From positions 1-64,000 of the forward strand of contig JALERU010000049.1 in the NCBI GenBank assembly GCA_022764045.1: a stretch of DNA of 64,000 nucleotides, written 5' to 3'. The notes under the pieces were generated by a model. That model was not told the origin of the DNA. It searched no databases and was given only the letters and a program-made list of their open reading frames with translations. Source of the stretch: Clostridiales bacterium (lineage in GTDB: Bacteria; Bacillota; Clostridia; Oscillospirales; Oscillospiraceae). The position numbers and the translations under genes are program-made. Positions 24,726-41,620 of the stretch are shown in pieces. Every line of letters begins with the position of its first letter. The stretch's first letter is position 1.

Positions 24726-24769
24726 GCAACGCCCCAAAAGTCTTTCTGCCTTGGTTTTTGGGGCGTTGC
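24726..24769 (+). terminator. Hairpin, probable ancestral guaA terminator
   Basis: gcaacgccccaaaa pairs perfectly with ttttggggcgttgc over 14 bp. The T-run after it is poor. Its position after the second att-like copy suggests it once ended the guaA transcript. Confidence 0.6.
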
Positions 24770-24935
24770 TCTCATCTGGAATCATTGCCACTATACTTAT
24801 TGGAGCCTTTTTATATTCCTTACAGACATGTTTGACATGGAGTAACAGCTTGCGTCCATCCGAAGTCCGCCGAACCAGGATCTGGTTTCCAAGTCTACAA
24901 AGAGAACTGCTCTAAAAAATTGTGCAAAATCGCTT

Positions 24936-24964
24936 TTGCATTTTGGAAACCAAGGTGATATATT
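24936..24964 (+). promoter_or_regulatory. Promoter of the MATE-kinase gene with operator-like palindrome
   Basis: TTGCAT, a 17-bp spacer and TATATT predict a start near 24971, 148 nt before the coding ATG. The spacer contains TTGG-AAA-CCAA, and the -35 overlaps a TGCAAAA-TCGC-TTTTGCA hairpin. A distant copy of GGTTTCCAA lies near 24885. These may be binding sites for a regulator. Confidence 0.6.
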
Positions 24965-24993
24965 GTCTTAGAACTAAATATGGGTGATAAACG

Positions 24994-25091
24994 ACACATG
25001 TTGCGCAATGCGCGTAAATCTGATTACGGTACAACAGCGGTTTCATGTGTTCGTGTTTTTACAGCACATGGCTCCCCATGTGCTGTTTTTT
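24994..25091 (+). promoter_or_regulatory. Transcription attenuator in the MATE-kinase leader
   Basis: Four complementary segments are in order: 1 acacatg (24994-25000), 2 catgtgt (25044-25050), 3 acagcacatgg (25061-25071) and 4 ccatgtgctgt (25076-25086). Segments 3 and 4 form a perfect 11-bp stem with a CTCC loop and six T residues, a full intrinsic terminator. Segment 2 can pair with 1 (7 bp) or with 3 (6 bp), the alternative that would prevent termination. Open frames run through the leader from ATG at 24980 and from ATG at 25008. This is the geometry of ribosome-mediated attenuation used by antibiotic-inducible genes. Confidence 0.7.
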
Positions 25092-25118
25092 GTTGCCCAT
25101 CAACAAGGAGGAGACAAC

Positions 25119-27083
25119 ATGCAAGAAAGCAACTATTTGGGAACAGAACGTCCGGGAAAATTGTTAAGGCAATTTGCGATCCCATGTATTTTTTCCCTGA
25201 TCATCTCATGCCTTTATAACATCGTTGACCAGATCTTTGTCGGAAACGGCGTCGGTTATTTGGGAAACGCCGCAACGGGCGTAATCTTCCCCATTACCGT
25301 CATCGGCTGGGGCGCGTCTCTGCTCTTCGGTGACGGCGCCGCCGCTTCGCTGAGCGTGTCTCTGGGTCGAAATGAGACCAAGAATATCCACCGAAGCGTC
25401 GGTAACAGCGTGCTGGGCTCTTTCCTTTCCGGCGTTGTCATCATTGTTATCTGCTATTTGTTTGGCGACTCCCTGCTGTTGTTGATTGGCGCCACTGACG
25501 CCAACTTAGCACTTGCCCATGACTACGGCTTTATCATCTACGCCATGATGCCCCTGGCCCTGGTCCAGAACACCCTGGCCTCCATCATCCGGGCAGACGG
25601 CAGTCCCCGCTACGCCATGGGTGCGATGCTAGTGGGCGCTGTTTTGAATATTATCGGCGATCCCGTGGCCATCTTTGTCTTGGATCTGGGCATCAAGGGC
25701 GCCGCTTACGCTACCATCATCGGGCAGTTTGTCAGCTTCCTGATCTGCGTTGCCTATTTGAGAAAGAGCAAATCTTTCCGCCTCTCTCTGGCCAGCTTCT
25801 GGCCGGACTTCACCCAGCTCAAGCGGGTCATGGCTCTGGGTACTTCCAGCTTTTTGACCCAGCTCTCCATTGTCATCATCACCGTGATTAACAACATTCT
25901 TCTGGTGAGCTATGGCGCTCAGTCCGTCTACGGCGAGGACATTCCCCTGGCAGCCTTCGTGGTCATTATGAAGCTCTTCCAGATTGTGCTGAACATTGCC
26001 ATCGGCATCGCCGCCGGCGCCCAGCCCATTGTGGGGTATAACTACGGCGCGGGGAACTATGACCGGGTCAAGACGCTGTTAAAGCTCATCCTCAAATGGA
26101 CAGCCATCGTCTGTGTGATCTGTACCGTCTTCTTTGAGGCCATTCCCTTGGTGTTTATCCGCATGTTCGGAGCCGATGGGGAACTGTACACCCAGTTTGC
26201 CGTCCAGTGCCTGCGGATCTACCTTGCCCTCATTCTCTTTACTTGCCTCCAGAAGGTGTGCGCCATCTTCCTGCAGTCCATTGGCCACGCCAAAACGGCG
26301 GCTCCCCTGTCTGTGCTGCGGGACCTTTTCCTTATCATCTTCTCCCTGATCCTGCCCAGGAAGGTAGGGGTCACCGGCATTTTCTGGGCGGCTCCCACAG
26401 CGGATCTCATCGCCATCGGCATCACTGCCGCCGTCATGGTTCGGCTGTGGAAGCAGTTGGGAACCCAAGAGACCCCCTCCGGCGAGGCCGACGCTCCGAT
26501 TCTCCAACCCTCCAAGCCCGGCATCATTCTCACCATTTCCCGGGAGCACGGCTCCGCCGGCAAACGCATTGGCCAAATGGTGGCGGAAAAAATGGGGGTT
26601 CCCTGCTATTACAAGGAAATGATTGCCCTGGCCGCAAAAGAAAGCGGCCTGTCGAAAGGCTTTATTTCCAGCATCGACTCCGACGAAAATGCCGTCATGA
26701 AGGAGCTGTATTTAAGCACAAACGTCATCCAGCAGGCCATCACCGCCCAAGACCAAGCCATCAAGCAGATTGCGTCCATGGGCGCCTGCGTCATCATCGG
26801 TCGGGCCGCAGATTATGTACTCCGAAACCACAAAAACGTGGTTCGCGTATTTATTTACGCGCCGGAGGAATACCGGATCAACAAGGTGATGGAGATGTAC
26901 GGCGACACAAGAGAGGAAGGCAAACGGAGCATCGCCCGTTCTGACTCTGCCCGGTCCGCTTACTACAAGAGCATCTCCGGTCGGGCATGGGGTGACCCCC
27001 ACGAGTATGATCTCTGTGTCAACAGCTCCATTGGGATCGACGCCACGGCAAACTTGATCTGCGATTACTTCAATGGCATGTAA
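25119..27083 (+). CDS. MATE efflux transporter fused to a cytidylate-kinase-like domain
   Basis: This 654-residue protein has two parts. Residues 1-450 form a MATE-family antiporter with about twelve membrane segments, starting LLRQFAIPCIFSLIISCLYNIVDQIFVG and containing GAQPIVGYNYGAGN. Residues 465-654 form a cytosolic P-loop kinase-like domain: ISREHGSAGKRIGQMVAEKMG, ACVIIGRAADYVL, VFIYAP and an arginine-rich lid, as in cytidylate-kinase-like proteins. The transporter should use Na+ or H+ to export cationic or drug-like compounds; the kinase domain may phosphorylate a small molecule or sense a nucleotide. The ATG at 25119 follows aaggaggag. The reading frame stays open back to 24984, so a 37-45 residue extension is formally possible. 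Confidence 0.88.
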   Translation: MQESNYLGTERPGKLLRQFAIPCIFSLIISCLYNIVDQIFVGNGVGYLGNAATGVIFPITVIGWGASLLFGDGAAASLSVSLGRNETKNIHRSVGNSVLGSFLSGVVIIVICYLFGDSLLLLIGATDANLALAHDYGFIIYAMMPLALVQNTLASIIRADGSPRYAMGAMLVGAVLNIIGDPVAIFVLDLGIKGAAYATIIGQFVSFLICVAYLRKSKSFRLSLASFWPDFTQLKRVMALGTSSFLTQLSIVIITVINNILLVSYGAQSVYGEDIPLAAFVVIMKLFQIVLNIAIGIAAGAQPIVGYNYGAGNYDRVKTLLKLILKWTAIVCVICTVFFEAIPLVFIRMFGADGELYTQFAVQCLRIYLALILFTCLQKVCAIFLQSIGHAKTAAPLSVLRDLFLIIFSLILPRKVGVTGIFWAAPTADLIAIGITAAVMVRLWKQLGTQETPSGEADAPILQPSKPGIILTISREHGSAGKRIGQMVAEKMGVPCYYKEMIALAAKESGLSKGFISSIDSDENAVMKELYLSTNVIQQAITAQDQAIKQIASMGACVIIGRAADYVLRNHKNVVRVFIYAPEEYRINKVMEMYGDTREEGKRSIARSDSARSAYYKSISGRAWGDPHEYDLCVNSSIGIDATANLICDYFNGM

Positions 27084-27234: not shown

Positions 27235-30200
27235 TTACTTTTTCCAGGTCTCTGCCGTGTAGTCCTTGTTGATGGTGAAATCGTGCTCGGTGGTCGCCTC
27301 TGCGATCTGATACCAGGCCCAGTGGGCGTTGGTCACATCCGGGAAGACACGGCCCTCTCCCCGGTCGATGGCGTCATTGTCGCACAAGCGTCCCAGCATG
27401 CGGTTGGTCATGGTGGCGGCCTGGGCCCGGGTGATCAGGTCATCCGGCCCGAAGAGGTTGCCGCCATAGCCGCTCACCCAGCCGTAGGAGGCCACCACGT
27501 TGATGTACTGGTAAGCCCAATGGCTCTCCGGCACGTCCACAAAGGTGGTCTTGGCTGCCGTAGTCTTCTTGCCAAAGCGGGTGGCGATGGCAGAGAACTC
27601 CGCCCGGGTGATGGCCCGCTCCGGTTCATAGCGGTCGCTGCCCACGCCGTTGATCATGCCCATGGAGGCCAGGGTGTTCACCGCCTGGGCATACCAGGCG
27701 TTCTCGGGCACATCCTCAAACTGGACGGTGATGGGAACATCCTTCTTCAGCAGCAGGTTGTAGAACATCTGGGCTACCTCCGCCCGGGTAATGCTCCGCT
27801 CCGGCCCGAAGGTGCCGTTGGGATACCCAAAGAGGAAGGGGTCATGATCCTTGGTGTTCAGGATGGACGAGACCCCGGTGTCGTCGGGGGTCACCGGCTT
27901 GGGGTCCGGGTCGGGAGTGGGGGTCGGCTTCGAGCTGGAGATTTTGGTGAAGGTCACCATCACATAGGTGTCTTTGGTGATTTTCGTGATGGTATAGCTG
28001 TTTGTGCTGTCCAGCGTCACCTCTGCGCCGTTCACCGTGACCTTATCCAGTTGGTAGCCACTGTTTACGGTGACTGTGACCGTGAAATCGCTGCCATGGG
28101 CCACTGTTGCGGAAGGAGTAATGCTGCCGCCGGTACCCGCCTGGGTATAGACTTGACAGGTCTTAGTGGCAAACACGGCGTACAAGGTAGTGTCTTTGGT
28201 GATCGTGATGTTCGGATCTTGGATTGTGGTCGTACTATCTTTATTCTCTGACCAGCCACAGAACACATAGCCGTCCTTCAAATCATAGGGCTGGAGTGCC
28301 TTGATGTTCACAGTGCTGCTGGGCTTGAAGAACATTTCACTGGGCAGAGTGGCGATCTGATCTCTGGTGCTGGAGCCGGCAACTGTGAAATCGAAGTTCA
28401 TCTTGTAGAAAACGCTCATTGCCTCCGGGGTTGCCCACACGGCGAAGAGCTTGACGTCCTCACTGCCCATCAGGAAGGTGCCGTCCTTACCATACAGGAT
28501 CTTCACTTGGCTGAGGTCTGTTAGGGTATCCTTATACTCTACCGTACTCCAGCCGGCGAACTGTGCGCCCTCTTTGGTCAGGTCTTTGCCCTCCAACACC
28601 TTAACGGTTTTGCCGGGGCTGTAGGTATTGTTATCTACTGGCGCCGTTCCCGTGCCGCCGTTGAGATCGTAGGTCACAGTGTGGGCCACATTCGCCGTCC
28701 ACATGGCGTACAAGGTGGTGTCGCCAGTGATCGTGAAGGTCGCGCCGGGCTGGTAGAGTGTTCCCTTCCCGTCCGCCTGGGTGTTCCAACCGTTGAAGGT
28801 ATAGTCCTCGCGGGTCAGGCCGTTTTTGACGGTGACAGTGGCGTCCTTTTGGTACGCTGTATTGTCCGTGGGAACAGTAACACCTTCTGCGCCGTTTGCT
28901 TTATAGGTCACAGTGAAGGTTTTGTTTGCCGTCCACTGGGCCATAAAGGTTACATTGGCATCACCAACCGTATAGGTTTTAGTACCATTCTTGCCATAGA
29001 CTGTATCCTCCCCGTCGATTTTCCAACCGTCGAAGGTGTAGCCCTCGCGGGTGGGTTCGTCGGTAACGATAGTGTGCGTCGCATCCTTTCCAAGGAGGAA
29101 AGCGGTCGATGCGATCTTACTATCCTCGCCGCCGTTGGCCCGGTAGGACAACAGGCGGTGGGTAAGGAGCAGTTCATTCTTGACCCACAGCGGGGATAGA
29201 TCCACGTTGTCTGTCAGGGTTAAACTCTCTCCCGGCTGATACAGATGACCCAGGTCGCCGTCACCGATGTCCTCTGCGGTGTTAAAGATTTTTTCTTTCT
29301 CACCAGGCGTCCAGCCCAGGAAGGTGTAGCCCTCTTTCGTTAAGCCCTCAGAGCTTCTCAGTTCCACCGGATTACCGCGCTCCACAGGCTCGCTTTCTTC
29401 TGTCGTACTATCCGACAGATGGTACGTCACCTTAACCTTTCCGATCTCTGTCCACACAGCGGTGAGGGTGGTATCGCCAGTGATCGTGAAGGTCTGGCCG
29501 GGTTGGTATGTCGTGTCGTTCAACTTCCAGCCGGCAAAAGTGTAACCATCGCGGGTCGGGCCCTTTAGAACGGTGACAGTGGTATCAGGTAGGTATTGGC
29601 CGTTGTCCGTAGGTCCATCCTGGCCGCCATTGGCCTCATAGGTCACAGTATACCTGGCTTCCTCATAGTCCGGCTTGCCGTTGCCATTCTCATCCTTCGC
29701 CCACAGGGCGTAGAGGGTGGTGTACTTCGTTACGCCATCAGGTTTTTTTACCTCGTATTCACTGCCAGGCAAATGATTCACTTTCGGGGGTGTCGTCAGT
29801 AACTTCTCCGGATTTTCCGTCCACCCCAGGAACACTGCACCATTGCGTGTTGGAGCATCATTTTGTGCACCTGCCAGTATGACCTTGTCACCGACCTTAC
29901 ACTCCTGCGCGGCGGGCGCGCCAACACCGCCGTTGGCGTCGTAGATCAGCAGGATATTGCCCTCCAGGAAGTCGGGGACTTCATTGTTGTCGCTGTCCGC
30001 GCCCCACACAGGGTACAGGTTGAAGGCCCCGTTGCTGGGGTTGCCCACATAGAAGCTGGCGCCTGTGGCATACACGCTGCCCAGCTTCACATAGTCGCTG
30101 AGGTTGTCTACGGCGTATTTAACGGTGTCTTCGCCTTGCCCATTTTGGGCCTGCGCCGTGGGGGTCCAGCCCATGAAGACATACTCCACATTGTCTTTCT

Positions 30201-33200
30201 TATACGTCAGGCTCCCCTCGTCTTTTGCCGTAGCCATCGCGCCGATGAGATAGGTCTGATCGTCCGTGGGAGGGGTACCCGTAGCAATACCCTTGTCATA
30301 GACCACCTTCACCGTGCTTTGCACCACGTCTGCCCGGCCGTCTCCGTCGGTGTCGTAGCCCCAGATGGCGTAGAGGGTGGTGAGCGTTTTCTCCGGCCTC
30401 AGGGTCTGGCCGGCATAGATCATCGCGGGCAGGTTGTCGCCCTTTTTGTAGATCTTCCCGTTGTCGTTCTCCTGGGACCAGCCCACGAAGAGGACGGGAT
30501 ACTCTTTGTCACCCACTGTGCTCTTATCGTGGGTCATGCCGCTGCCCGAAGCCACGCTGAAGGTTCCCTGGCTGTGGGCATCCGCAGGCAGACTCTCGGC
30601 ATTGCCGCCGTTGGCGTCGTACTTCAGGGTGTACTGCATGGGGCCGATTTGGAACGTTTTTGTTGTGGTCCCGGTGTAGTTGCCCATGCCGGTGATGGTA
30701 ACTTTGGCCGTGGCCCCGGGCTGGACGTTGTCGGTAACGCTAATGGTGTAGTCTTTGCCGAGTTCCAGCGTTTTCTCGCCGTCCTCGATAGTCAGCTTGG
30801 GTACCACAGCGTTGCCGGTGTAAGGTTGCTCTGGAATAGCGGAAACCATACTGTTTTCGATTGTCTTTGGTGTGACCACTACTGTGGTAGAACCAAAAGC
30901 AGCAGTCGGCGTATCTCCAACTGTATCGCTATACTCAGCCTGGATTACGTAAGTACCCGCATCACCAGTTTTGAACGAAGCTATATCATCCGTTTTTGTT
31001 ACCTCGATAGTTTGGCTACTTCCCGCCGTTGGATAACAAATTACAGTGTAGCTTGCAGCAGAAGTCACATCCTTCTCACCAAACATTGCTGTCAGCGTTG
31101 CGGTTCCTCCGTCTGGGTTGTAGACCCCACCGCCATTCGCAGTCAGTGCAAGGTAGCTTCCCTCCTTTACCACCATGAAGGGCAGTTTGATGCTTTTGCT
31201 ATAGTTGGTTCCCTTAGCAGTTACTATAGCATAATAGCTGCCTACCGAATCTTGTGTAATTGCTGTATTGGGTCCGACTTCGGTTCCGTCCTGCTTATAA
31301 TATTTCACAGTAAAATGTGTATTCGGATCAAGCTTCTCAGACCCTTTCTCCTTCCAGTAAGTCACCTCCGGCACAGGCCAGGTTGCTCCATCCTTTGCCT
31401 CTACATAGGCAATGGTAGCAACAATGCGCTCTGCGGCGGTTTGATTCCCGGTGCCAATCGCTTTCTTCTGGATCGTCAACACCGGGTTATCCTTTAGCTC
31501 ACTATTCTTCAAATGAATCGTATAGTTTGGCCCAGCCGAAAGGGTGCTGCCTTCATCCAGGTTCAGCGCATAAGTACCTGCGTTCTCGCCAGCAACTCTG
31601 CCCGGTTTCCCGGTGACATTGATTCCTTGAAGTGGTTTATACTCACTGGGATCGTCTACTCCACCTTCTTCTGTAGACTTTTCGTACACCTCATAGCTAT
31701 ACTCCGGGTCATTCTCACCATAGACCTTTACGGTGTTCCCCACCGCCACATAGATGTCCTTGGGCTCGATCTCAAACTTCACCGCCCGGCTGCCGGTGTA
31801 GTTGCCGGCGCCCACGAGCACTGCCGTGGCCGTACCCGCGTTGGTGTTGTCGATATAGGTCAGGTTGTAGTCGGTCCCGTAGGTCAGCTCTGCGTGCGGC
31901 GTAAGCCCACCGGTGCTCAGTCCAGCGTAGGTAACATCATTTAGGCCGCCGCTAAAGGTAATCGCTTTGCCAGTGTAGGTCTTCCCCGCAATAGGATCGA
32001 CCTTCACATCGGTAGTACCACCGTCGGTATTCCCTTCCGCCAAATCCTTGGCCTTCACCGTAAAGGTCGCCTCACCAAACGCCCCCGCATAGTTCCCCGT
32101 GCCGTTGACGTGGATGGTGTAGGTACCCGCGTTGATAAACTCTGTGGAAGCGCTGGCAAATGTCTCGCTCTCCGTCACCGTTTTCCCGGTGGTGTCGGTG
32201 TAACTGTAGGTCATGGAGTAGTTGTTGCTGTTGAGGGCCGCGCCGCCCTCGGTCTTTACGGTAACCTTGGGCCGGTAGGCGTCGGCCTTATAGGTGACCT
32301 GATTGTCGGGGATCTCCACCTGCAACGTCTTGCCGGCGGTCACCACGGAGAAGGTCTGCTCCAGCTGGTTGGTGTAGTTCCCCATGCCGGTGATGACCAC
32401 CTTATACTCTCCCACCGCAATGGGCGCAGCGGAGAGCTGCGACCAGTTGGGGGTCTCCGTTGTCCCGTTGTTCCGATAGTAGGTCAGCGTGTAGTCCCTG
32501 CTCTCATGGAGGGTCTGGGTGCCCAGAGAGGCCAGTGGCGCTTGGAAGGTCAGGCTCTCCAGCGGGGTCACGGGGTAGCCGGTGTACTCCACCTGGTTTT
32601 TGCAGGTTACCTTAATCCCATCGGCGGGCTGTTCCGGCTTGGGGTCGTCATCCTCCACCTCGCACAGGCTCTTGGGATGGATGGAAAACATGGTGTCGCT
32701 GGACACGGTAAGGATGTAGTTCGGCCCTGCGGTGAAGGTGTTCAGGGAGTAATAGTAGTTGCCCACGTCCTCGCCTTCCGCGCGGTAGAGGGTGCCAGTG
32801 GGATAGTTCTCCGGTTTCTCTTCATCATAGAGGAAGAACCCAGACTCGCCAATTTCCCCGGCCGCGCCGTCCCGTTCATTTTCGCCCACCAGGGTGCTTA
32901 GGTTTGTTTCATAGGTAAACGTGGGGATGTCGTCGCCGTAAATCTTGCTGTTGTCCTTCACCGTAACCGTCACCGGCCGGGGGGTGACGCGCATAAAGAA
33001 GTAGCCAAACTTGTTCGGGTCTTTCTCCTGGGTCATCTTCACCACATAGCCGCCCATGTCCAGGATCTTGTATTTTGCGGGGACTAGGGTACTATCATCT
33101 CCGTCGCTGGTTTTGTAATAATCCTCCAAGCTGGCGATCTTCACCTCGTAGTTGTCAAAGCTGGGCTCCAACCGGTTTGCCTCTCTCTTCACTTCCTCAA

Positions 33201-36200
33201 TGTTCAGGTCCTGGAAGTTCAGATACCCAAACAGGTCGGTGGCCTGGTAGACGTACTCGTTGTTGCTGTCCTCAATCTTCAGATCACCATTCGGGAGAGT
33301 CACCGTTTTGACCTCAACCGTTTTTGTGCCCGTGTAGTTGCCTTGTCCGTTGAATGTAATCTGATCCGGGTTGTTCTCACTTCCCGGCTTCCCGTCTTCC
33401 GTAAGGAATATTTGCTCATAATCCCCGCCGGGAGAGAGCATCATGCCGTTGTAGGTGAGCACCGCTCTGGGCCGGGTGATACCCAGGTTATAGGTGGAGA
33501 CGTCGATTACCACCTTGGGGTGATCCACAATCTCCTCCACGTCCTTGTTATCAAGGCTTTTGGGATGCACGGTAAAAGGAATCGAATCCGTACCGCTATA
33601 GTTCCCCTTACCGGCCACAACAATTCTATAGGTGTCCGCATTGAGGATCAGGTTGGTGGCTACAAGTTCTGGCTCCGTCGTAGTGCTGCCGGTGGCAGGT
33701 TTGACTTCTCGGTATATCGACACCGTATAATCCCGGCCCTCCACCAGGATTTTGCCGCCGCTTCCTTTAACGGTCAGCTTGGGGTCAATCCGCTTGCCGG
33801 TGTAGATGGCTCCGTTCTCAGGCTCAACCTTTACAATGTCAATCTCATTCTGCCCAATCCTGATGGCGCCAATGGCCACATACTTGCCGGTACCATCGGT
33901 GGCCACCAACACGTGGCGGCCTGCATCCCGGGCCGGATCGTCAGGCAGGCCCACCTGGAGGGTGTACTGGGCGGCGTTCAGGCGCTCCGGTGTACTATCA
34001 CCGCTTTCCGATTTTTTCACCACCCGGAGGCTGTTGCCCGTGCTTCCTTCAAAGGTTTCGTCGTACATCTTCACGTCGCCGTCTACATAGATGTTCCCGT
34101 TGTAGGGCACGTTCAGAGGATCGGTTCCCCATTCCGCGTCTTCACCGTTCTTCGTCTGAATCGCCATGGTCAGCGGCTTTTCGGTGATGAGCAACGCCTG
34201 GTGGCCGGTGGCGGTGGCGCTGTAGTTGGGATCGGCCGCAAGGTCGATTCCCAGCGCAGTTGTCGCATTGGTAGAATTTTTTCCATCATAGGGATGAATC
34301 TCGATGGTATACAGCCCCTCGGCGCAGGGCAGGCCGTTGTCACCCACCTTAGCGTTGCTGTCGGCGGGGACGAAGGTGTAGGTTACGTTGTTCGTGCCCA
34401 GCTTGTTGCCGTAGATGTCGGTGATTTTCAAGCCATCGTCAGCTTTCTCGCCCTTGATCAGCTTCAGAATCGCAGCCTTGACCGCATCGGAGTCCGTCTC
34501 CACATTCTGAATGACCACATTGTTGGTCATCTCCGGGTTCAGCCGCCCGGTGTAGGGGGTGATTGTAAAGAGCTGCCCCTTCCAGCCGGAGACGCCGGTG
34601 TAGTTGACGCTCTGGCCCTCAATGGCGGCCACTTCCACCGAGTAGGTCCCCACACCCTGGCCGTCGATCTTTTGGACGGAGGGCTTTTTACCATCAAGCT
34701 CCACGCCGTACCACGAACCGGTGGCGGTGTAGTAGGTTTCATCGGCGTAGTAGTAGGTGGTGCCGCCGATTTCCCCGGCCTTGTTTCCTTCCGTCCCTTG
34801 CGTCGTCAGCTTCCGGTAATACACCTGCAAATCGTCGCCGCTGGTGAGGTTCAGGTTGGTGTGGTTATCCCGCACCCGCACGGTGCCCCCGCGGGAGGTG
34901 TTGCCGCCCTCCTGGCCCTTCGGGCCGATGTAAGAGGCGGTGTCCGGCGTCACGGAGGTGATGACCACCGACTCATCGCTGACCTTTTTCCGATGGATGG
35001 TCAGCTCGCTCAGGCCGCTGATGGAAGAGGCGCTGTTGTCGGCGCGATATTTGTCGTTGACCTTCCAGTAGTCGGCGTAGGAGGCCGCGTACTCATCGCC
35101 GCCGGTGAAGGAGCTGGTGAGGTAATAGATGTGATCATCGCTCGCCGGGAAGACCGGGTTGGCGTCGGTGCCGGTGTAGCGGTACAGCTTCGCCTCACCG
35201 TTGAACTGCACCCGGGCGGTGAGGACGCGGTTCTTCACGCCGTCCACCACCTGGGCCATGGTCACCGTGACCACGCCGTTGGCGTTGTTCACCGGGTTGC
35301 CGTAGGCGTCCTTCAAAACGGTGTCGATGGCCAGGGGGTGCGTTTTGTTGTCGTAGCCGTAGGCGCGCTCGTAGATGTAGTAGATGGGGTAGTAGGTGTC
35401 TTTCTCCATATCCTGTTTATTATTAGTTCCATCCGTCGGCTTCTCCGTGCGAATATTTTCATCCGTGGCATTGCCGTCTTTACTGTGCTCGGTGCACACC
35501 AGCCGGGGGATGACGTCCTTGACGCGGGGATAGAGGTAGCCGTCGGTGCCGATGAACCAGTTGGGGGCGTCGTCGCCGTCATTAGTATAGTTGCTCTTGT
35601 CCGTTGTCACCGAGTCTGCCAGCGCAAAGTGGCTGCGCAGGTTGTGGCCGGTGGTGCTGGCCGCCCGTTCAACATCGCCTTGAATCACCCGGCGTTCTGT
35701 GTATTTATTCTCGCTGACCAGACTACCCAGGTCCGTATAGATGGTGGCGGCGAGGTCGTCGCCCTCTGCGGAGGCATCGTACTCCGGCCAGGCCTTGTGC
35801 TCCAGGGCAGTGATGCAAGCGTTCCCATCTGCCAGCAGCACCTTCCCGGCGTGGCTGTCTTTGTCCATCTCCAGCGTGCCGCCGTTGGTTGCTGTAGTAG
35901 CGTTCACTGTCACGGCGTAGTTGCCATTTACATTCAGGGTGGCCTCGTTCAGGGTCAGTTTGCCGGAATTGCTTACCACAAACTGGCTGGTGGGATCTGC
36001 TCCGGCTGCTGCGGCGGCCACGCCGCCGGTTACGGTGCCGTTTTTCAGGGTCAGGTGGTAGTTGCTCAGGGTCTGCTGGGGCATGCCCTGGAGGTCCAGG
36101 GTGAAGTTGTTCAGGTCGAAGATGACGTTGGCGTTATCTGGCAGCCGAGCAAAACCCATGGTTACGCCAGTATTGCCGTAGTAGTGGACCGTGTTGTTCT

Positions 36201-39200
36201 CACCTGCCGTCAGCGGGGTGATGGTGCAGGTGTCCCAATCCTTCTTTGCATACTCGCCCGTTTCGGCATTCATCACATTCGCCATGCGGATGAAGGCGTG
36301 GTCCATGGTGTCGTAGTATTCGGTGAGGACAGGGTCGGTTTTGTTCTCGCCGTCCTTCGCTGTCATCTTCAGCTCCACCGCCGGAGGCGCAAATTTTGCT
36401 ACGATGAGGATGTTGTCCGTGCCGCCGGTGTAGGTTAATACATCAGTTGTTGTATCATAACCCAGCTTGCCGGTCAGATCATTTTCTGTAACGCCATCAC
36501 GATATTTCCAGCCAGTCGGAATACCGGTGGTCGGATATTCCAAGTTTCCATTCAGCGTGATTTTCTCAAAGGTCGCATCCGCCATGGGCTTATAGATGAA
36601 CTGGCCGAAGACCCGTTCACCCTTTTCCTGATCCGGGTTACTGTTGACGGCGGAACGGTCGGACTTATAGATGGTCAGGGATTTCAAAATGCCCTTCTGG
36701 TGGCCCTTGTCGTCGGTTACCGGGTTGAGATTCAGGCTCATCTTCATGCCGGTGGAGAAGTAGGACTGCTGCCCGTCGCTGGAGCTGGTCAGGCCATCCG
36801 CGCTCAGCTTCACGCTGCCGATCTCGGACTTCACCGGGTTGCCGTCTTCAACCGCCCCGTCCAGCTCATTTAGCGTGACAGCCAGGTAGTTGTTGGTGGT
36901 AAAGTCGGCCACCAGGGTTAGGTTTTTGCTCTCGTTATAGGTTGAACCAGCGGTTAGGCTTCCGCTATTCGGAGCTAACGTCACATTGCCGTTGTCCACC
37001 TCCGCCATCAGCCAGCGGCCCAGGCTCTTGCCGGGTTCAATCTGCAGAACGCCGGTTTTTCCGTCTTCGTCCTTTAATTGGTTGGCCGTGTCCCAGCCCA
37101 AAATGGTGTAGTTCTGCCCCGGCACCACCATGTCTGTTACGTGGTGGGAACCCAGTTCGTCAGCTTCCTTCAACCGGTCATAGTAGGTGATGGTGTAGTA
37201 GTTCAGCTCGATGATGTTGGTTTCCCCTTGCGCACTGGAAAGCGCCATGGGAAACCCCCGGTAATGGGCCGTCTTTTCATTGTCCTGCGTCAGTAGGATA
37301 GCATACTGATCCTTGCTTGCCATCTGGATGATGTTGGTACCCAGCGCAGTCTCCCGGGAGTTGATGGTCAGCTTGTTCTCGGGGGTCTGGTTGGTTCCCT
37401 TGTAGGCAGCGGTCAGCTCAACCACATGCCCCTGCTCCAAATACAGCCGGTCGTTGCCGCTGGCGTAGGCGCCCTGGTCCAGAAGCAGGGTGCCACGGTT
37501 GTAGACGCCGCCGCCGAAGCCGTTGATGGTGTCGTTGTCGCCAGAGGTCAAGTGGTTGTTGTTGATCCGGGCGTTTTTCAGGGTCAGCTTGCCGAAGGAG
37601 CCGGCCACATCTGTGCCCAAGTCCTCGTCTTTTGGATCAATTACCCCTGTTTTCTGGTCGGTATCGGTTGTCGTCGTCTTTACGCAGTCAATGTACGCGC
37701 CGCCGCCGTAGGTGGCGGTGTTGTCCTGCAGATCGGCGCTTTCCAGGGTCACCTCGGAGTAGGCCCCCGCGTAGATGCCGCCGCCATAGACGGCGGTGTT
37801 CCCGGCCACGTCGCTGGAAATGGTGACGGTAACCTTTTTATCTGCTGCGCCCATGGCAGCCAGGCCACCGCCGATGGTTGCCTTGTTGCCGGTCAGGGTG
37901 AGCTGGTTTCCGATCTCCAGGGCGTTGTTCGTATTCACGTTGCCGCTGGTGAAGATACCGCCGCCCATGCCTTTCAGGATGGTCCCGGCGGTGAGCTCCC
38001 CGGCGGTGTTGTTGGTGATGGCCGTCGGGCCGGTGAAGGTCACTTTGCCGCCATACTGGGCCAGGCCGCCGCCGTTTGCCTGGGACCAGTTTTTGGTGAT
38101 GGTCACGCCGCCCAGCTTGGCTTTGACGTCTTTAGCCAGATACAGACCGCCGCCGCAGCCGGGGTTGTCACAACCGGTACTTGTAGGTTCACTTTCACTA
38201 TATCCGCTGATGGTCAGGTCATAGGCTTTGTTCTTCGTGGCCGCGCCGTTTCCTTGCACGGCCGCGTTGCCGGAGATGGTGCCGCCGGTGAGGTTCAGCT
38301 CACCGCCCAGACCGGCAACCGCGCCCCATTCGCCCCGGTTGCCGGAGATGGTGCCGCCGGTCATTTTGAATGTACCACTTTCAACATTCACCGCGCCCGC
38401 GCCGTAGTAGTATTTGGGCTGGCCGTGGTAGAGGGGGTCTTTCCCCTCCTCTATGGCTTTCATTTGTTTTGTCTTATCGTAGCGGGGCATAGCGCCGGTG
38501 TTGTCGGTCAGGGCGCCGCCCTTCATGTTGAAGATGCCCTTGTTATACACTGCGCCCGCCAGGGGGCTGACGCCCTTGGAAATGGTGGCCCCGTCCATCA
38601 TGGTGAAGGTACCCTGGTTATACACCGTGCCGGGGGTCGTGGTAGATTTGTTGGTGTGCTTGGTCAGGGTCACGCCGCTGTGGATGGTGGCGGAGGCGTC
38701 CTTCTCCACCTTCAGCATGGGGCCGTCCACAGGGTAGGAATAGTTGCCGTCGAAGACCAGGGAGCCGTAGCCCATGCCCAGTTGGGTCTCCTGGCCGAAG
38801 TGCAGGGTGCTGCCGTTCTTGACCACGATGGCAGCGGAGGTGTCGGTTGCTGGTTCTGTTCCCGTTTCCTTGTTCAGCTCCAGCGCGCTGGACAGGGTGA
38901 TGGTGTAGTCGTTACGGACGTTGTAGTTATAGGATGTTTTATAATATGTTTCTCCGTTACTCTCTACCTTGTTACTGTCATCCCCACTCTCCACCAGGAA
39001 ATCGCCGCTCATCACATAGTAGCCGTGCTCGTCCTTGTGCTGCTGGTCAAAGTAGCAGGTGCCGCCGGACATACTGGACGCCACGCCCGCCGAGCTGGTG
39101 CTCTCGGCCAGCAGAGTGATTTCCTTTGCTCCGTTCTTGCCCAGCACAGCGGAGTCCATCATGGTGGCGTTGTAGAAGATGTACAGGGTGTCGCCGTCCT

Positions 39201-41547
39201 TCGCGTCGGTGAAGGCATCGTCCAGGTTGTCGTAGATGCGGTAGTAGGTTTTGGTTACATTCTCGCTTCCTACTGTCTCCTCAACCTCCACCGGCGTGCC
39301 GTTGCGGATCCAGTATTGCTTGGTCTCTTTGTACTCCTGGAGGGTCAGGTAGCCGCTGACGTTGTCCTCTGCTCCCGGTTGCGTGGCTTTCAGATACCAC
39401 TGGGTGCTGTCCAGGCCAAATTTGTTTTCCTGGATGTCGAGGGTTTTGTCCTCGTCTTTGGAGAACTCTACGATCTTTCGGCCTTCGCTGGCATGATCAT
39501 ATTGTGTACTTCCTCCCGTAGTTTTCCAGAAGTCCTCTGAAAACTCAAAGATGCCCACGGTGCCAATATAGGCTTTGTCCAGTTCTCCGCTTACCAGAAC
39601 AGGGATTTGATCGTTCATCACGTTTTCAAAATATACCGTGTTCTGGGTGTCAATTCGCGCTCCTCCCGACATGGTCAGCAGGTGGTGTTTACTTTGAACA
39701 GTCCCCTCATTTTTGCCTACTTTGTTTACAATATACATACCGCCGCCCTTTTTATAAGCGGTGTTGCCGGTCATCACAAAGTTACCTGACAGAGTCGCTT
39801 CCGTATTCGCTTTGTCGGGTGCTTTCTCCTCGTTTCCATCTGCGTAAATGGCTGTGCCGCCGCCGTTGACCGCTTTGTTCTGCTGGATAGTGCCTCCGGA
39901 CAGCTTCAGATGCGCGCCCTTTGTATAGGCACCTGATCCGGCGCAGATACCGCCGCCATAGCCGCCGTAATTTGTTTGATTCGTGGTAACCATTGCCTCG
40001 TTGTAGGCAATGGTGCCGCCGAACATAGATACCGAAGCAGCGGACAATCCATCGCTATTCTCATTTGTTTCTCCATAGCTTGCCGCAATACCGACACCGC
40101 CACCATAGCCTGCGGTGTTGCTGCTGATCTCACCGCCGTGGATGTTGATCTTTCCGTTCCAGGCCACCACACCGCCGCCATAGCCGCCGGCGAAATTGTG
40201 ATGAATTTTTCCGCTATACAAGTCCAAAACGGAACCGCAGCGCACCATGATGCCGCCGCCGTCTCCTGCTCCGTTTCCATCATTTTTGAGCCCTGCGTGG
40301 TTATCAGAAACCTCTCCGCCATACATCGTCATAGACGCATAATCTAAGGCCACACCGCCGCCATCCGCAGCGCCTATATAACCATATGCAGCATTGTTTT
40401 CGATGCATCCGCCATACATTACAGCTTCAGCTTTGTTTTTATTAGCTAGTTTATTTATATCATTATTATCATCATAATCATATGTCCAACTTACTTTACT
40501 GTTGCCAATGTAAACTGCACCCATGCCACGGTCAGTATTAGTGCTAGCATCAGCTTTTGTCGCACACTTCGTAACCATACCGCCGTACATATTCAGCTTG
40601 GAACCAGCTTCGCTATAAATGGCGCTGCCAAAATTTCCTTGTTTATCGTTGTTTTGCAGCGTTACGCCATTCCAGAGATTCAGTGTGCCGGTGCTCTTGA
40701 TGAGGGATGCGGTTGCTCCGACGCCCGTGTTGGAAAAAATGAAATGTTTATTGTTATCATCATAAAAAACAATGGTATTTTCATTAAAAGAGGACTTGCT
40801 CGGAGTATACTCACTTCCTTTTTGCCACACCGCGCCGCCGTCGATGACCAGATTACCACCGGACTGGGTTACTTCATAATTCCCCTTCTGCAGGGCTTCC
40901 TCGTCTTTTGTGCTGATTGTGCCGTCGCCCAAGATAAGCTGGCCGGGGTTGGTCACATTGAACAGAACGCCATCCGCATATTTGCTGTCCCGTTTCAGGG
41001 TAATGGTCTTGTCTTTTTCCACAGAGATATGAATGGTACGGCTAATCTCAATCGTTTTATCCCAAGTCCATGTCTCTTTACCATCATCTTGATCCGTGGT
41101 CAGCACAATATCCGTCACGTTGTTGTTTCCAACAGCTGCCGCAAGACCTGTAAAGCTCTTTACCTTAACAGCAGAATCCACCTCAGCCTGTCTCGTCTTC
41201 CCCTGGGGCTGGGCGGACGCAGGCTCCGCCGGGGTGCTCTCCTCCGTTTGGGCGGGGGCTGCTCCCGCCGCTTCCTCCTGGGCGGGAACGGTCCCTTCAT
41301 CCGTCTCCGGTGCAGGGGTTTCGCCGCTCTCTTCCTGGGTCTCCTCAGGGGCCGCCGGGTCCGCCGCAACAGGCCAATCCGCCGCCAAGCTTGCCTGACA
41401 ACCCTTATGGGCCGCAATCGCGCCGGAAGCTTCTCCCCCTGTGCTGGCCCCCGTGTCTGTATCCCCGCCCGTGGCCCAGGCCGTTGACGGCAGCAGGGAC
41501 GAAACCATACACGCCGCAAGCAACAAGGAAACAAAACGTCTTTTCAT
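27235..41547 (-). CDS. Giant secreted SLH-domain surface protein
   Basis: This 4,770-residue protein is encoded by one intact 14.3 kb frame. Residues 1-30 are a signal peptide (KRRFVSLLLAACMVSSLLPSTAWA), followed by a Pro/Glu/Thr-rich linker. Residues 150-720 and 950-1480 repeat GGTI..N.A..GGG units typical of right-handed beta-helices. Residues about 2300-3620 hold many Ig-like and MBG-like modules (YTGKAI, YGDDIPTFTY, GNYTG). Residues about 3640-4450 are InlB/Flg_new-type repeats (YDANGG...FxGW), 4460-4540 a divergent InlB-like domain, and 4570-4720 three SLH repeats (FGPERSITRAE). It should be non-covalently held on cell-wall polymer and act in adhesion or glycan binding. The start at 41547 follows aaggaggg. 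Confidence 0.93.
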   Translation of the reverse strand: MKRRFVSLLLAACMVSSLLPSTAWATGGDTDTGASTGGEASGAIAAHKGCQASLAADWPVAADPAAPEETQEESGETPAPETDEGTVPAQEEAAGAAPAQTEESTPAEPASAQPQGKTRQAEVDSAVKVKSFTGLAAAVGNNNVTDIVLTTDQDDGKETWTWDKTIEISRTIHISVEKDKTITLKRDSKYADGVLFNVTNPGQLILGDGTISTKDEEALQKGNYEVTQSGGNLVIDGGAVWQKGSEYTPSKSSFNENTIVFYDDNNKHFIFSNTGVGATASLIKSTGTLNLWNGVTLQNNDKQGNFGSAIYSEAGSKLNMYGGMVTKCATKADASTNTDRGMGAVYIGNSKVSWTYDYDDNNDINKLANKNKAEAVMYGGCIENNAAYGYIGAADGGGVALDYASMTMYGGEVSDNHAGLKNDGNGAGDGGGIMVRCGSVLDLYSGKIHHNFAGGYGGGVVAWNGKINIHGGEISSNTAGYGGGVGIAASYGETNENSDGLSAASVSMFGGTIAYNEAMVTTNQTNYGGYGGGICAGSGAYTKGAHLKLSGGTIQQNKAVNGGGTAIYADGNEEKAPDKANTEATLSGNFVMTGNTAYKKGGGMYIVNKVGKNEGTVQSKHHLLTMSGGARIDTQNTVYFENVMNDQIPVLVSGELDKAYIGTVGIFEFSEDFWKTTGGSTQYDHASEGRKIVEFSKDEDKTLDIQENKFGLDSTQWYLKATQPGAEDNVSGYLTLQEYKETKQYWIRNGTPVEVEETVGSENVTKTYYRIYDNLDDAFTDAKDGDTLYIFYNATMMDSAVLGKNGAKEITLLAESTSSAGVASSMSGGTCYFDQQHKDEHGYYVMSGDFLVESGDDSNKVESNGETYYKTSYNYNVRNDYTITLSSALELNKETGTEPATDTSAAIVVKNGSTLHFGQETQLGMGYGSLVFDGNYSYPVDGPMLKVEKDASATIHSGVTLTKHTNKSTTTPGTVYNQGTFTMMDGATISKGVSPLAGAVYNKGIFNMKGGALTDNTGAMPRYDKTKQMKAIEEGKDPLYHGQPKYYYGAGAVNVESGTFKMTGGTISGNRGEWGAVAGLGGELNLTGGTISGNAAVQGNGAATKNKAYDLTISGYSESEPTSTGCDNPGCGGGLYLAKDVKAKLGGVTITKNWSQANGGGLAQYGGKVTFTGPTAITNNTAGELTAGTILKGMGGGIFTSGNVNTNNALEIGNQLTLTGNKATIGGGLAAMGAADKKVTVTISSDVAGNTAVYGGGIYAGAYSEVTLESADLQDNTATYGGGAYIDCVKTTTTDTDQKTGVIDPKDEDLGTDVAGSFGKLTLKNARINNNHLTSGDNDTINGFGGGVYNRGTLLLDQGAYASGNDRLYLEQGHVVELTAAYKGTNQTPENKLTINSRETALGTNIIQMASKDQYAILLTQDNEKTAHYRGFPMALSSAQGETNIIELNYYTITYYDRLKEADELGSHHVTDMVVPGQNYTILGWDTANQLKDEDGKTGVLQIEPGKSLGRWLMAEVDNGNVTLAPNSGSLTAGSTYNESKNLTLVADFTTNNYLAVTLNELDGAVEDGNPVKSEIGSVKLSADGLTSSSDGQQSYFSTGMKMSLNLNPVTDDKGHQKGILKSLTIYKSDRSAVNSNPDQEKGERVFGQFIYKPMADATFEKITLNGNLEYPTTGIPTGWKYRDGVTENDLTGKLGYDTTTDVLTYTGGTDNILIVAKFAPPAVELKMTAKDGENKTDPVLTEYYDTMDHAFIRMANVMNAETGEYAKKDWDTCTITPLTAGENNTVHYYGNTGVTMGFARLPDNANVIFDLNNFTLDLQGMPQQTLSNYHLTLKNGTVTGGVAAAAAGADPTSQFVVSNSGKLTLNEATLNVNGNYAVTVNATTATNGGTLEMDKDSHAGKVLLADGNACITALEHKAWPEYDASAEGDDLAATIYTDLGSLVSENKYTERRVIQGDVERAASTTGHNLRSHFALADSVTTDKSNYTNDGDDAPNWFIGTDGYLYPRVKDVIPRLVCTEHSKDGNATDENIRTEKPTDGTNNKQDMEKDTYYPIYYIYERAYGYDNKTHPLAIDTVLKDAYGNPVNNANGVVTVTMAQVVDGVKNRVLTARVQFNGEAKLYRYTGTDANPVFPASDDHIYYLTSSFTGGDEYAASYADYWKVNDKYRADNSASSISGLSELTIHRKKVSDESVVITSVTPDTASYIGPKGQEGGNTSRGGTVRVRDNHTNLNLTSGDDLQVYYRKLTTQGTEGNKAGEIGGTTYYYADETYYTATGSWYGVELDGKKPSVQKIDGQGVGTYSVEVAAIEGQSVNYTGVSGWKGQLFTITPYTGRLNPEMTNNVVIQNVETDSDAVKAAILKLIKGEKADDGLKITDIYGNKLGTNNVTYTFVPADSNAKVGDNGLPCAEGLYTIEIHPYDGKNSTNATTALGIDLAADPNYSATATGHQALLITEKPLTMAIQTKNGEDAEWGTDPLNVPYNGNIYVDGDVKMYDETFEGSTGNSLRVVKKSESGDSTPERLNAAQYTLQVGLPDDPARDAGRHVLVATDGTGKYVAIGAIRIGQNEIDIVKVEPENGAIYTGKRIDPKLTVKGSGGKILVEGRDYTVSIYREVKPATGSTTTEPELVATNLILNADTYRIVVAGKGNYSGTDSIPFTVHPKSLDNKDVEEIVDHPKVVIDVSTYNLGITRPRAVLTYNGMMLSPGGDYEQIFLTEDGKPGSENNPDQITFNGQGNYTGTKTVEVKTVTLPNGDLKIEDSNNEYVYQATDLFGYLNFQDLNIEEVKREANRLEPSFDNYEVKIASLEDYYKTSDGDDSTLVPAKYKILDMGGYVVKMTQEKDPNKFGYFFMRVTPRPVTVTVKDNSKIYGDDIPTFTYETNLSTLVGENERDGAAGEIGESGFFLYDEEKPENYPTGTLYRAEGEDVGNYYYSLNTFTAGPNYILTVSSDTMFSIHPKSLCEVEDDDPKPEQPADGIKVTCKNQVEYTGYPVTPLESLTFQAPLASLGTQTLHESRDYTLTYYRNNGTTETPNWSQLSAAPIAVGEYKVVITGMGNYTNQLEQTFSVVTAGKTLQVEIPDNQVTYKADAYRPKVTVKTEGGAALNSNNYSMTYSYTDTTGKTVTESETFASASTEFINAGTYTIHVNGTGNYAGAFGEATFTVKAKDLAEGNTDGGTTDVKVDPIAGKTYTGKAITFSGGLNDVTYAGLSTGGLTPHAELTYGTDYNLTYIDNTNAGTATAVLVGAGNYTGSRAVKFEIEPKDIYVAVGNTVKVYGENDPEYSYEVYEKSTEEGGVDDPSEYKPLQGINVTGKPGRVAGENAGTYALNLDEGSTLSAGPNYTIHLKNSELKDNPVLTIQKKAIGTGNQTAAERIVATIAYVEAKDGATWPVPEVTYWKEKGSEKLDPNTHFTVKYYKQDGTEVGPNTAITQDSVGSYYAIVTAKGTNYSKSIKLPFMVVKEGSYLALTANGGGVYNPDGGTATLTAMFGEKDVTSAASYTVICYPTAGSSQTIEVTKTDDIASFKTGDAGTYVIQAEYSDTVGDTPTAAFGSTTVVVTPKTIENSMVSAIPEQPYTGNAVVPKLTIEDGEKTLELGKDYTISVTDNVQPGATAKVTITGMGNYTGTTTKTFQIGPMQYTLKYDANGGNAESLPADAHSQGTFSVASGSGMTHDKSTVGDKEYPVLFVGWSQENDNGKIYKKGDNLPAMIYAGQTLRPEKTLTTLYAIWGYDTDGDGRADVVQSTVKVVYDKGIATGTPPTDDQTYLIGAMATAKDEGSLTYKKDNVEYVFMGWTPTAQAQNGQGEDTVKYAVDNLSDYVKLGSVYATGASFYVGNPSNGAFNLYPVWGADSDNNEVPDFLEGNILLIYDANGGVGAPAAQECKVGDKVILAGAQNDAPTRNGAVFLGWTENPEKLLTTPPKVNHLPGSEYEVKKPDGVTKYTTLYALWAKDENGNGKPDYEEARYTVTYEANGGQDGPTDNGQYLPDTTVTVLKGPTRDGYTFAGWKLNDTTYQPGQTFTITGDTTLTAVWTEIGKVKVTYHLSDSTTEESEPVERGNPVELRSSEGLTKEGYTFLGWTPGEKEKIFNTAEDIGDGDLGHLYQPGESLTLTDNVDLSPLWVKNELLLTHRLLSYRANGGEDSKIASTAFLLGKDATHTIVTDEPTREGYTFDGWKIDGEDTVYGKNGTKTYTVGDANVTFMAQWTANKTFTVTYKANGAEGVTVPTDNTAYQKDATVTVKNGLTREDYTFNGWNTQADGKGTLYQPGATFTITGDTTLYAMWTANVAHTVTYDLNGGTGTAPVDNNTYSPGKTVKVLEGKDLTKEGAQFAGWSTVEYKDTLTDLSQVKILYGKDGTFLMGSEDVKLFAVWATPEAMSVFYKMNFDFTVAGSSTRDQIATLPSEMFFKPSSTVNIKALQPYDLKDGYVFCGWSENKDSTTTIQDPNITITKDTTLYAVFATKTCQVYTQAGTGGSITPSATVAHGSDFTVTVTVNSGYQLDKVTVNGAEVTLDSTNSYTITKITKDTYVMVTFTKISSSKPTPTPDPDPKPVTPDDTGVSSILNTKDHDPFLFGYPNGTFGPERSITRAEVAQMFYNLLLKKDVPITVQFEDVPENAWYAQAVNTLASMGMINGVGSDRYEPERAITRAEFSAIATRFGKKTTAAKTTFVDVPESHWAYQYINVVASYGWVSGYGGNLFGPDDLITRAQAATMTNRMLGRLCDNDAIDRGEGRVFPDVTNAHWAWYQIAEATTEHDFTINKDYTAETWKK

Positions 41548-41620
41548 AAAATAGCCCTCCTTCAAATCGTCGATCAGATGCAAAATACTCTCTTTCTATT
41601 CCGGCGCGTTAGGAACACAA

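Follow-up and report, generated by a model that had tools for sequence, protein, structure and literature searches.

The MATE-kinase gene in the DNA analysed here, a 64,000-nucleotide stretch from a Clostridiales bacterium (the window), is preceded by a leader whose segments can pair in alternative ways, and the question is how this leader acts on the gene and in response to what. Comparison with related leaders suggests that it is probably a copy of a cis-regulatory RNA that is embedded in a terminator and has not been catalogued; the likeliest type is a riboswitch that senses a small molecule and turns on export genes. The gene and its start signals are:

24935-24964, plus strand: possible promoter, TTTGCA-18-TATATT with TG before the -10, a weak candidate since the count of such sites in the region is no higher than in shuffles
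25107-25113, plus strand: Shine-Dalgarno sequence GGAGGAG, by direct reading
25119-27083, plus strand: MATE transporter fused to a cytidylate-kinase-like domain (PF01554 + PF13189), 654 aa

Upstream of the leader lies a DUF3788 gene of low G+C (PF12663; 24209-24622), closed by its own terminator-like hairpin at about 24726-24769. Directly convergent with the MATE-kinase gene is a 4782-codon open frame (27235-41583, minus strand), which reads as a repetitive surface protein.

Between promoter candidate and gene, the following segments were identified:

24994-25001, plus strand: segment 1, the 5' strand of helix P1, ACACAUGU, assigned from P1 pairing and double-change counts
25043-25050, plus strand: segment 2, the 3' strand of P1, UCAUGUGU, assigned from the P1 alignment
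25056-25060, plus strand: first U-run, short; part of terminator 1 in relatives, degenerate in the window
25061-25071, plus strand: segment 3, the 5' arm of terminator 2, ACAGCACAUGG, a partial repeat of segment 1
25076-25091, plus strand: segment 4, CCAUGUGCUGU (25076-25086), which with its U-run completes intrinsic terminator 2

Segment 1 pairs with segment 2 through ACACAUG (24994-25000) and CAUGUGU (25044-25050), segment 2 with segment 3 over 8 bp (25044-25051 with 25063-25070), and segment 3 with segment 4 over 11 bp (25061-25071 with 25076-25086), with folding energies of -19.6, -9.7, and -17.4 kcal/mol, respectively. A 7-nt four-segment chain ending in a U-run was obtained in 5 of 4000 dinucleotide shuffles of 24971-25100, and the fold of region 24900-25120 gave z = -3.8. 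The four complementary segments proposed at 24994-25091 by an earlier, sequence-only reading are thus borne out by duplexes, energies, and shuffles. Its range is accurate, and the element reaches beyond it, with conserved bases from 24990 and an outer helix (P0) outside. The terminator that it placed ahead of the ribosome binding site was also found, the 11 bp being followed by UUUUU and then by the Shine-Dalgarno sequence.

BLAST of 201 genomes of the same family detected the leader in 13 others; identity was 73-91% and lay mostly within 24990-25032. The same core was observed ahead of most close MATE-kinase homologues in public genomes. A covariance model of the motif, R1, had the window in its seed, so that the window's score of 75.3 bits is given by construction; L132-L166, for example, lie outside the seed. 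R1 matched 39 of 401 genomes in the family, 30 of 391 in the class, and 8 of 399 in the phylum, generally with one copy per genome. Among 95 loci analysed, from Clostridia and related classes, the gene directly downstream was recognised in 92: MATE or MATE-kinase in 47, DUF2798-like membrane proteins in 40, and LmrB/EmrB-like MFS transporters in 5; the other 3 were unclear. Two representatives of the DUF2798-like proteins, for which we know of no function, scored just below and well above the Pfam family cut-off, respectively. The presence of three unrelated transporter-like families under one RNA argues for a shared small-molecule signal. A phage origin was considered and rejected, as two pattern matches in viral_contigs were attributed to chance, one lying in an open coding frame and the other being without motif context. 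The DUF2798-like protein had no relative in viral contigs, and a search for plasmid carriage gave no match.

The motif is laid out as AACGAC, P1, the P2 hairpin, GUAAAUCUGAUYACGG, P1', and a U-run. In full, the consensus is (A/G)ACGAC, P1 of the ACACAUGU type, 1 nt, P2, GUAAAUCUGAUYACGG, a variable segment D, P1', and usually the U-run. In the window, its further parts are:

24980-24989, plus strand: 5' strand of P0, AUGGGUGAUA, pairing with 25091-25100
24990-24995, plus strand: conserved AACGAC at the base of P1, exact in 67 of 85 distinct loci, most others differing only at the first base
25003-25013, plus strand: P2 hairpin, GCGC-AAU-GCGC, supported by covariation
25014-25029, plus strand: conserved core GUAAAUCUGAUUACGG, presumed ligand-binding nucleotides; GTAAATCTGATYACGG in 65 of 85 distinct loci
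25030-25042, plus strand: segment D, in relatives base-paired to the 5' arm and loop of P2 (P2'); about 3 bp only in the window
25091-25100, plus strand: 3' strand of P0, UGUUGCCCAU, pairing with 24980-24989

Over 85 distinct rows, P1 was paired in 619 of 680 cells (shuffled mean 594, maximum 604) with 30 double changes (shuffled mean 6.5), and P2 in 330 of 340 cells (shuffled mean 282, maximum 292) with 61 double changes (shuffled mean 16, maximum 28); the covariation count on the 33-sequence seed alignment agrees with this result. The loops of P2 measure 3 to 22 nt, mostly 3-5. In shuffle tests, which ignore the relatedness of the loci and so give optimistic p-values, the P2' pairs between the P2 5' arm plus loop and D were more stable than partner-shuffled ones (p = 0/5000 in the MATE and DUF2798 groups each), and P0 gave p = 0.028 (MATE) and <0.0005 (DUF2798) for own versus swapped strands. 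Pairing of the core with D, the negative control, was without significance (p = 0.66 and 0.18 in the two gene groups). P2' is weak in the window copy. Because it uses P2 nucleotides, P2 and P2' are mutually exclusive; P1 and P2' together make an extended terminator stem whose loop contains the conserved core. P0 in the window has 10 bp and -11.3 kcal/mol; it joins the bases before AACGAC to those just past the last U-run and could form only in read-through RNA.

Because terminators occur often and two matching copies may be accidental, we also weighed whether this is simply a constitutive or vestigial terminator whose complementarity is due to chance. Given the 5 in 4000 shuffles and the conservation and covariation across many bacterial families, such an origin has a negligible probability for the window, and for the motif as a whole it is refuted by conservation and covariation. 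The motif is a structured 5'-leader RNA with invariant nucleotides in divergent taxa, which is the general mark of riboswitches; no known aptamer fold was recognised in it.

The same four segments with 1:2, 2:3, and 3:4 pairings are found in trp/erm-type amino-acid or antibiotic attenuators, and the sequence-only reading had assumed the same ribosome-mediated logic, with stalling in the leader. A frame, MGDKRHMLRNARKSDYG..., is open in the window, but the ATG at 24980 has no fitting Shine-Dalgarno sequence, and ATG and reading frame are not kept in relatives. Of 85 distinct homologues, 41 have no ATG-started frame that stays open through the leader core, and the rest use two different frames because the length of the P2 loop varies. 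The ATG in ACAUGU is changed to give ACAAGU, ACACGU, ACACGC, or ACAGGU, with the partner strand P1' changing to match, and the third positions of the codons AAA-TCT-GAT are frozen, unlike those of coding sequence. The frozen positions and pair-matched changes indicate that the RNA is conserved and not a peptide. Since the changes follow base pairing and not codons, and the motif differs from trp/erm-type attenuators in having no conserved leader peptide, a stalling ribosome is a very improbable regulator here.

Two layouts of the expression platform, which overlaps the conserved structure as in riboswitches, were observed in the relatives. In DUF2798 leaders, a U-run directly follows P1 in 38 of 40, and this is the only terminator found there. 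A second terminator was present in 30 of 45 MATE leaders; 13 of these 30 are without a U-run after P1, which indicates that the two layouts substitute for each other. P1 formation is the OFF state in both. The 5' arm contains CACA(T/C)G in 17 of the 30 second terminators, compared with 0 of 75 other terminator-like hairpins of the same loci, and CATG/CACG types match between segments 1 and 3 (17/4/0/5; Fisher p = 0.002, with related loci treated as independent). Across loci, the 2:3 duplex has -10.2 kcal/mol versus -5.6 with segment 3 shuffled. With segment 1 repeated in the second terminator, any withholding of segment 1 leaves segment 2 able to open terminator 2. In partition functions of window transcripts ending at 25070-25080, holding segment 1 raised 2:3 pairing from 0.04-0.64 to 0.93-0.99. 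This pairing, with the repeat of segment 1 in second terminators, upholds two parts of the sequence-only reading, attenuation through hairpins that exclude each other and the opening of the terminator by a freed segment 2, while the ribosome stalling assigned to free it is not supported. In the partition function of the full leader, an equilibrium value, holding segment 1 lowered terminator 2 from 0.97 to 0.63; with so much of it remaining, switching would have to be kinetic.

Comparison across the loci establishes the motif, helices P1, P2, and P2', the repeat of segment 1 in segment 3, and the gene associations, and from these a mechanism can be proposed. Without ligand, segment 1 would pair with segment 2 as P1, a stem that is longer by P2' in most relatives and that would itself act as the terminator in many leaders. 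In MATE leaders, including that of the window, P1 would also leave segment 3 free to form the strong terminator 3:4, and transcription would end short of the gene. When ligand is bound, the aptamer, which is transcribed early and comprises AACGAC, the P2 hairpin, and GUAAAUCUGAUYACGG, would keep P2 and withhold segment 1, and the freed segment 2 would pair with the emerging segment 3, block terminator 2, and let RNA polymerase into the MATE-kinase gene. We infer ligand binding, the small-molecule nature of the sensor, and the ON sign, the last because a compound usually induces its own exporter. On balance, we favour an undescribed riboswitch class of Clostridia with a terminator-embedded aptamer, which would control MATE-kinase, DUF2798-like, and LmrB/EmrB-like MFS genes through two interchangeable platforms, one terminator or two coupled, and may sense a toxic compound that is removed by these proteins and perhaps stems from the gut.

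The main rival is a trans-acting RNA-binding protein. A regulator encoded elsewhere could bind AACGAC, P2, and the core and prevent P1, as BglG/LicT-type, ANTAR, and LoaP regulators do on their targets. A hairpin within a terminator, flanked by strongly conserved primary sequence, would suit a protein site equally well, and a core-binding protein would leave the same footprint as an aptamer. However, no regulator gene lies beside the window copy, and there is generally one site per genome, ahead of three unrelated gene families. ANTAR sites consist of two hairpins with fixed hexaloops, whereas the motif has a single hairpin, whose loops measure 3 to 22 nt. Antitermination by a protein is considered unlikely.

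Somewhat less probable still is a riboswitch of the opposite sign, in which the ligand stabilises P1 and favours termination ahead of the exporter gene. The conserved core is enclosed by P1, as in many classical aptamers, and since P1 formation is OFF in both layouts, a P1 belonging to the ligand-bound fold would reverse the sign. Against this, exporter genes are usually induced by their substrate, and such induction is expected of the genes found here; P2 is incompatible with the P1-extending P2'; and the architecture resembles those of the guanidine-IV and HMP-PP ON switches (PMC7736828, PMC6478431).

The HMP-PP (thiS motif) riboswitch is an ON switch with its aptamer embedded in an intrinsic terminator (PMC6478431). 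Its aptamer nucleotides lie inside the terminator, and terminator and ligand-bound fold exclude each other (PMC6478431), as they would in the ON switch proposed here. It differs in that no thiamin gene was found among the 95 motif loci and that leaders of the present motif commonly have a second terminator, driven by 2:3 pairing. No Rfam match of any kind, and so none to the thiS-motif consensus, appeared at the window, a result that bears on HMP-PP only if Rfam 15 includes that family.

Guanidine-IV (GGAM-1 / mepA) has a 5' hairpin and a separate terminator hairpin joined by a pseudoknot, with mostly sugE targets (PMC7736828, PMC11611296). As in the present motif, conserved nucleotides lie in the terminator loop, MATE genes belong to the targets, and the logic is one of antitermination (PMC7736828, PMC11611296). 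In its orphan variant Gd4v, the loop consensus of guanidine-IV is retained, and >50% of copies precede a PRK07324 transaminase (PMC9788692). Both were rejected as identities of the motif, as hairpin order, loop consensus, and gene set all differ. The only conserved hairpin here, P2, is nested in the terminator stem, and none lies 5' of AACGAC. ACG is conserved twice in the motif, in contrast to guanidine-IV, which has no conserved ACG, and the loop pattern G-N3-GU-N4-G (L. lactis G62, G66, U67, and G72) is absent from GUAAAUCUGAUYACGG. Downstream, sugE was found in 0 of 95 motif loci, and the PRK07324 transaminase was absent among the recognised genes of 92. The window's own genome carries a guanidine-IV-like leader of sugE, L203 (G000:C49:35718-35821), with two hairpins and a loop, GGCCGUAGAAG, fitting G-N3-GU-N4-G; R1 gives it 8.4 bits, compared with 75.3 for the window as a seed member.

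Rfam 15 covariance models, T-box included, gave nothing relevant at the window at gathering and relaxed thresholds. They flagged guanidine-I leaders but not the guanidine-IV-like sugE leader of the window's genome. Rfam may therefore be incomplete here, and the lack of a match says little about novelty. No description of the motif was found in the literature, supplementary motif lists such as the 3161 gut candidate RNAs of PMC8040213 being outside that scope. The novelty of the motif is thus likely rather than proven.

If the motif is a riboswitch, it would be a new class, with three transporter families, unrelated to each other, to guide the search for its ligand, and DUF2798-like proteins and MATE-kinase fusions would be assigned a substrate or stress in common. 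One- and two-terminator platforms on the same aptamer would offer a natural comparison, and the motif suggests a concrete way to test how efflux genes are induced in gut Clostridia.

Divergent MATE(-kinase) genes (L038, L045-L069, and L169-L171) carry a different conserved leader about 60-180 bases before the MATE start, with no Rfam match. Its 5' part, GUC-G..CAGC, precedes a terminator, GCGUANAAU-loop-AUUCUACGC-Un, and a GAC at the loop end can pair with the 5' GUC. A model of this second leader type, R2, gave three strong matches only, all before MATE genes. In L038, L054, L062, L064, L067, L169, and L170, the element GUAGUUUUYAGGYAGCUUUUCUCUGAUAAAGACUCC lies between this terminator and the Shine-Dalgarno sequence, and the spirochaete relatives L039 and L041 have a similar one. 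The leader of L037 (Treponema), AACGAGCGGUGGAGUUCACGUAAGUCC...ACCGCUUGUUCUUUUUUU, about 100-130 bases before the MATE start and unmatched by R1, shares the layout of the motif, with AACGA, a stem, a nested hairpin, and a U-run.
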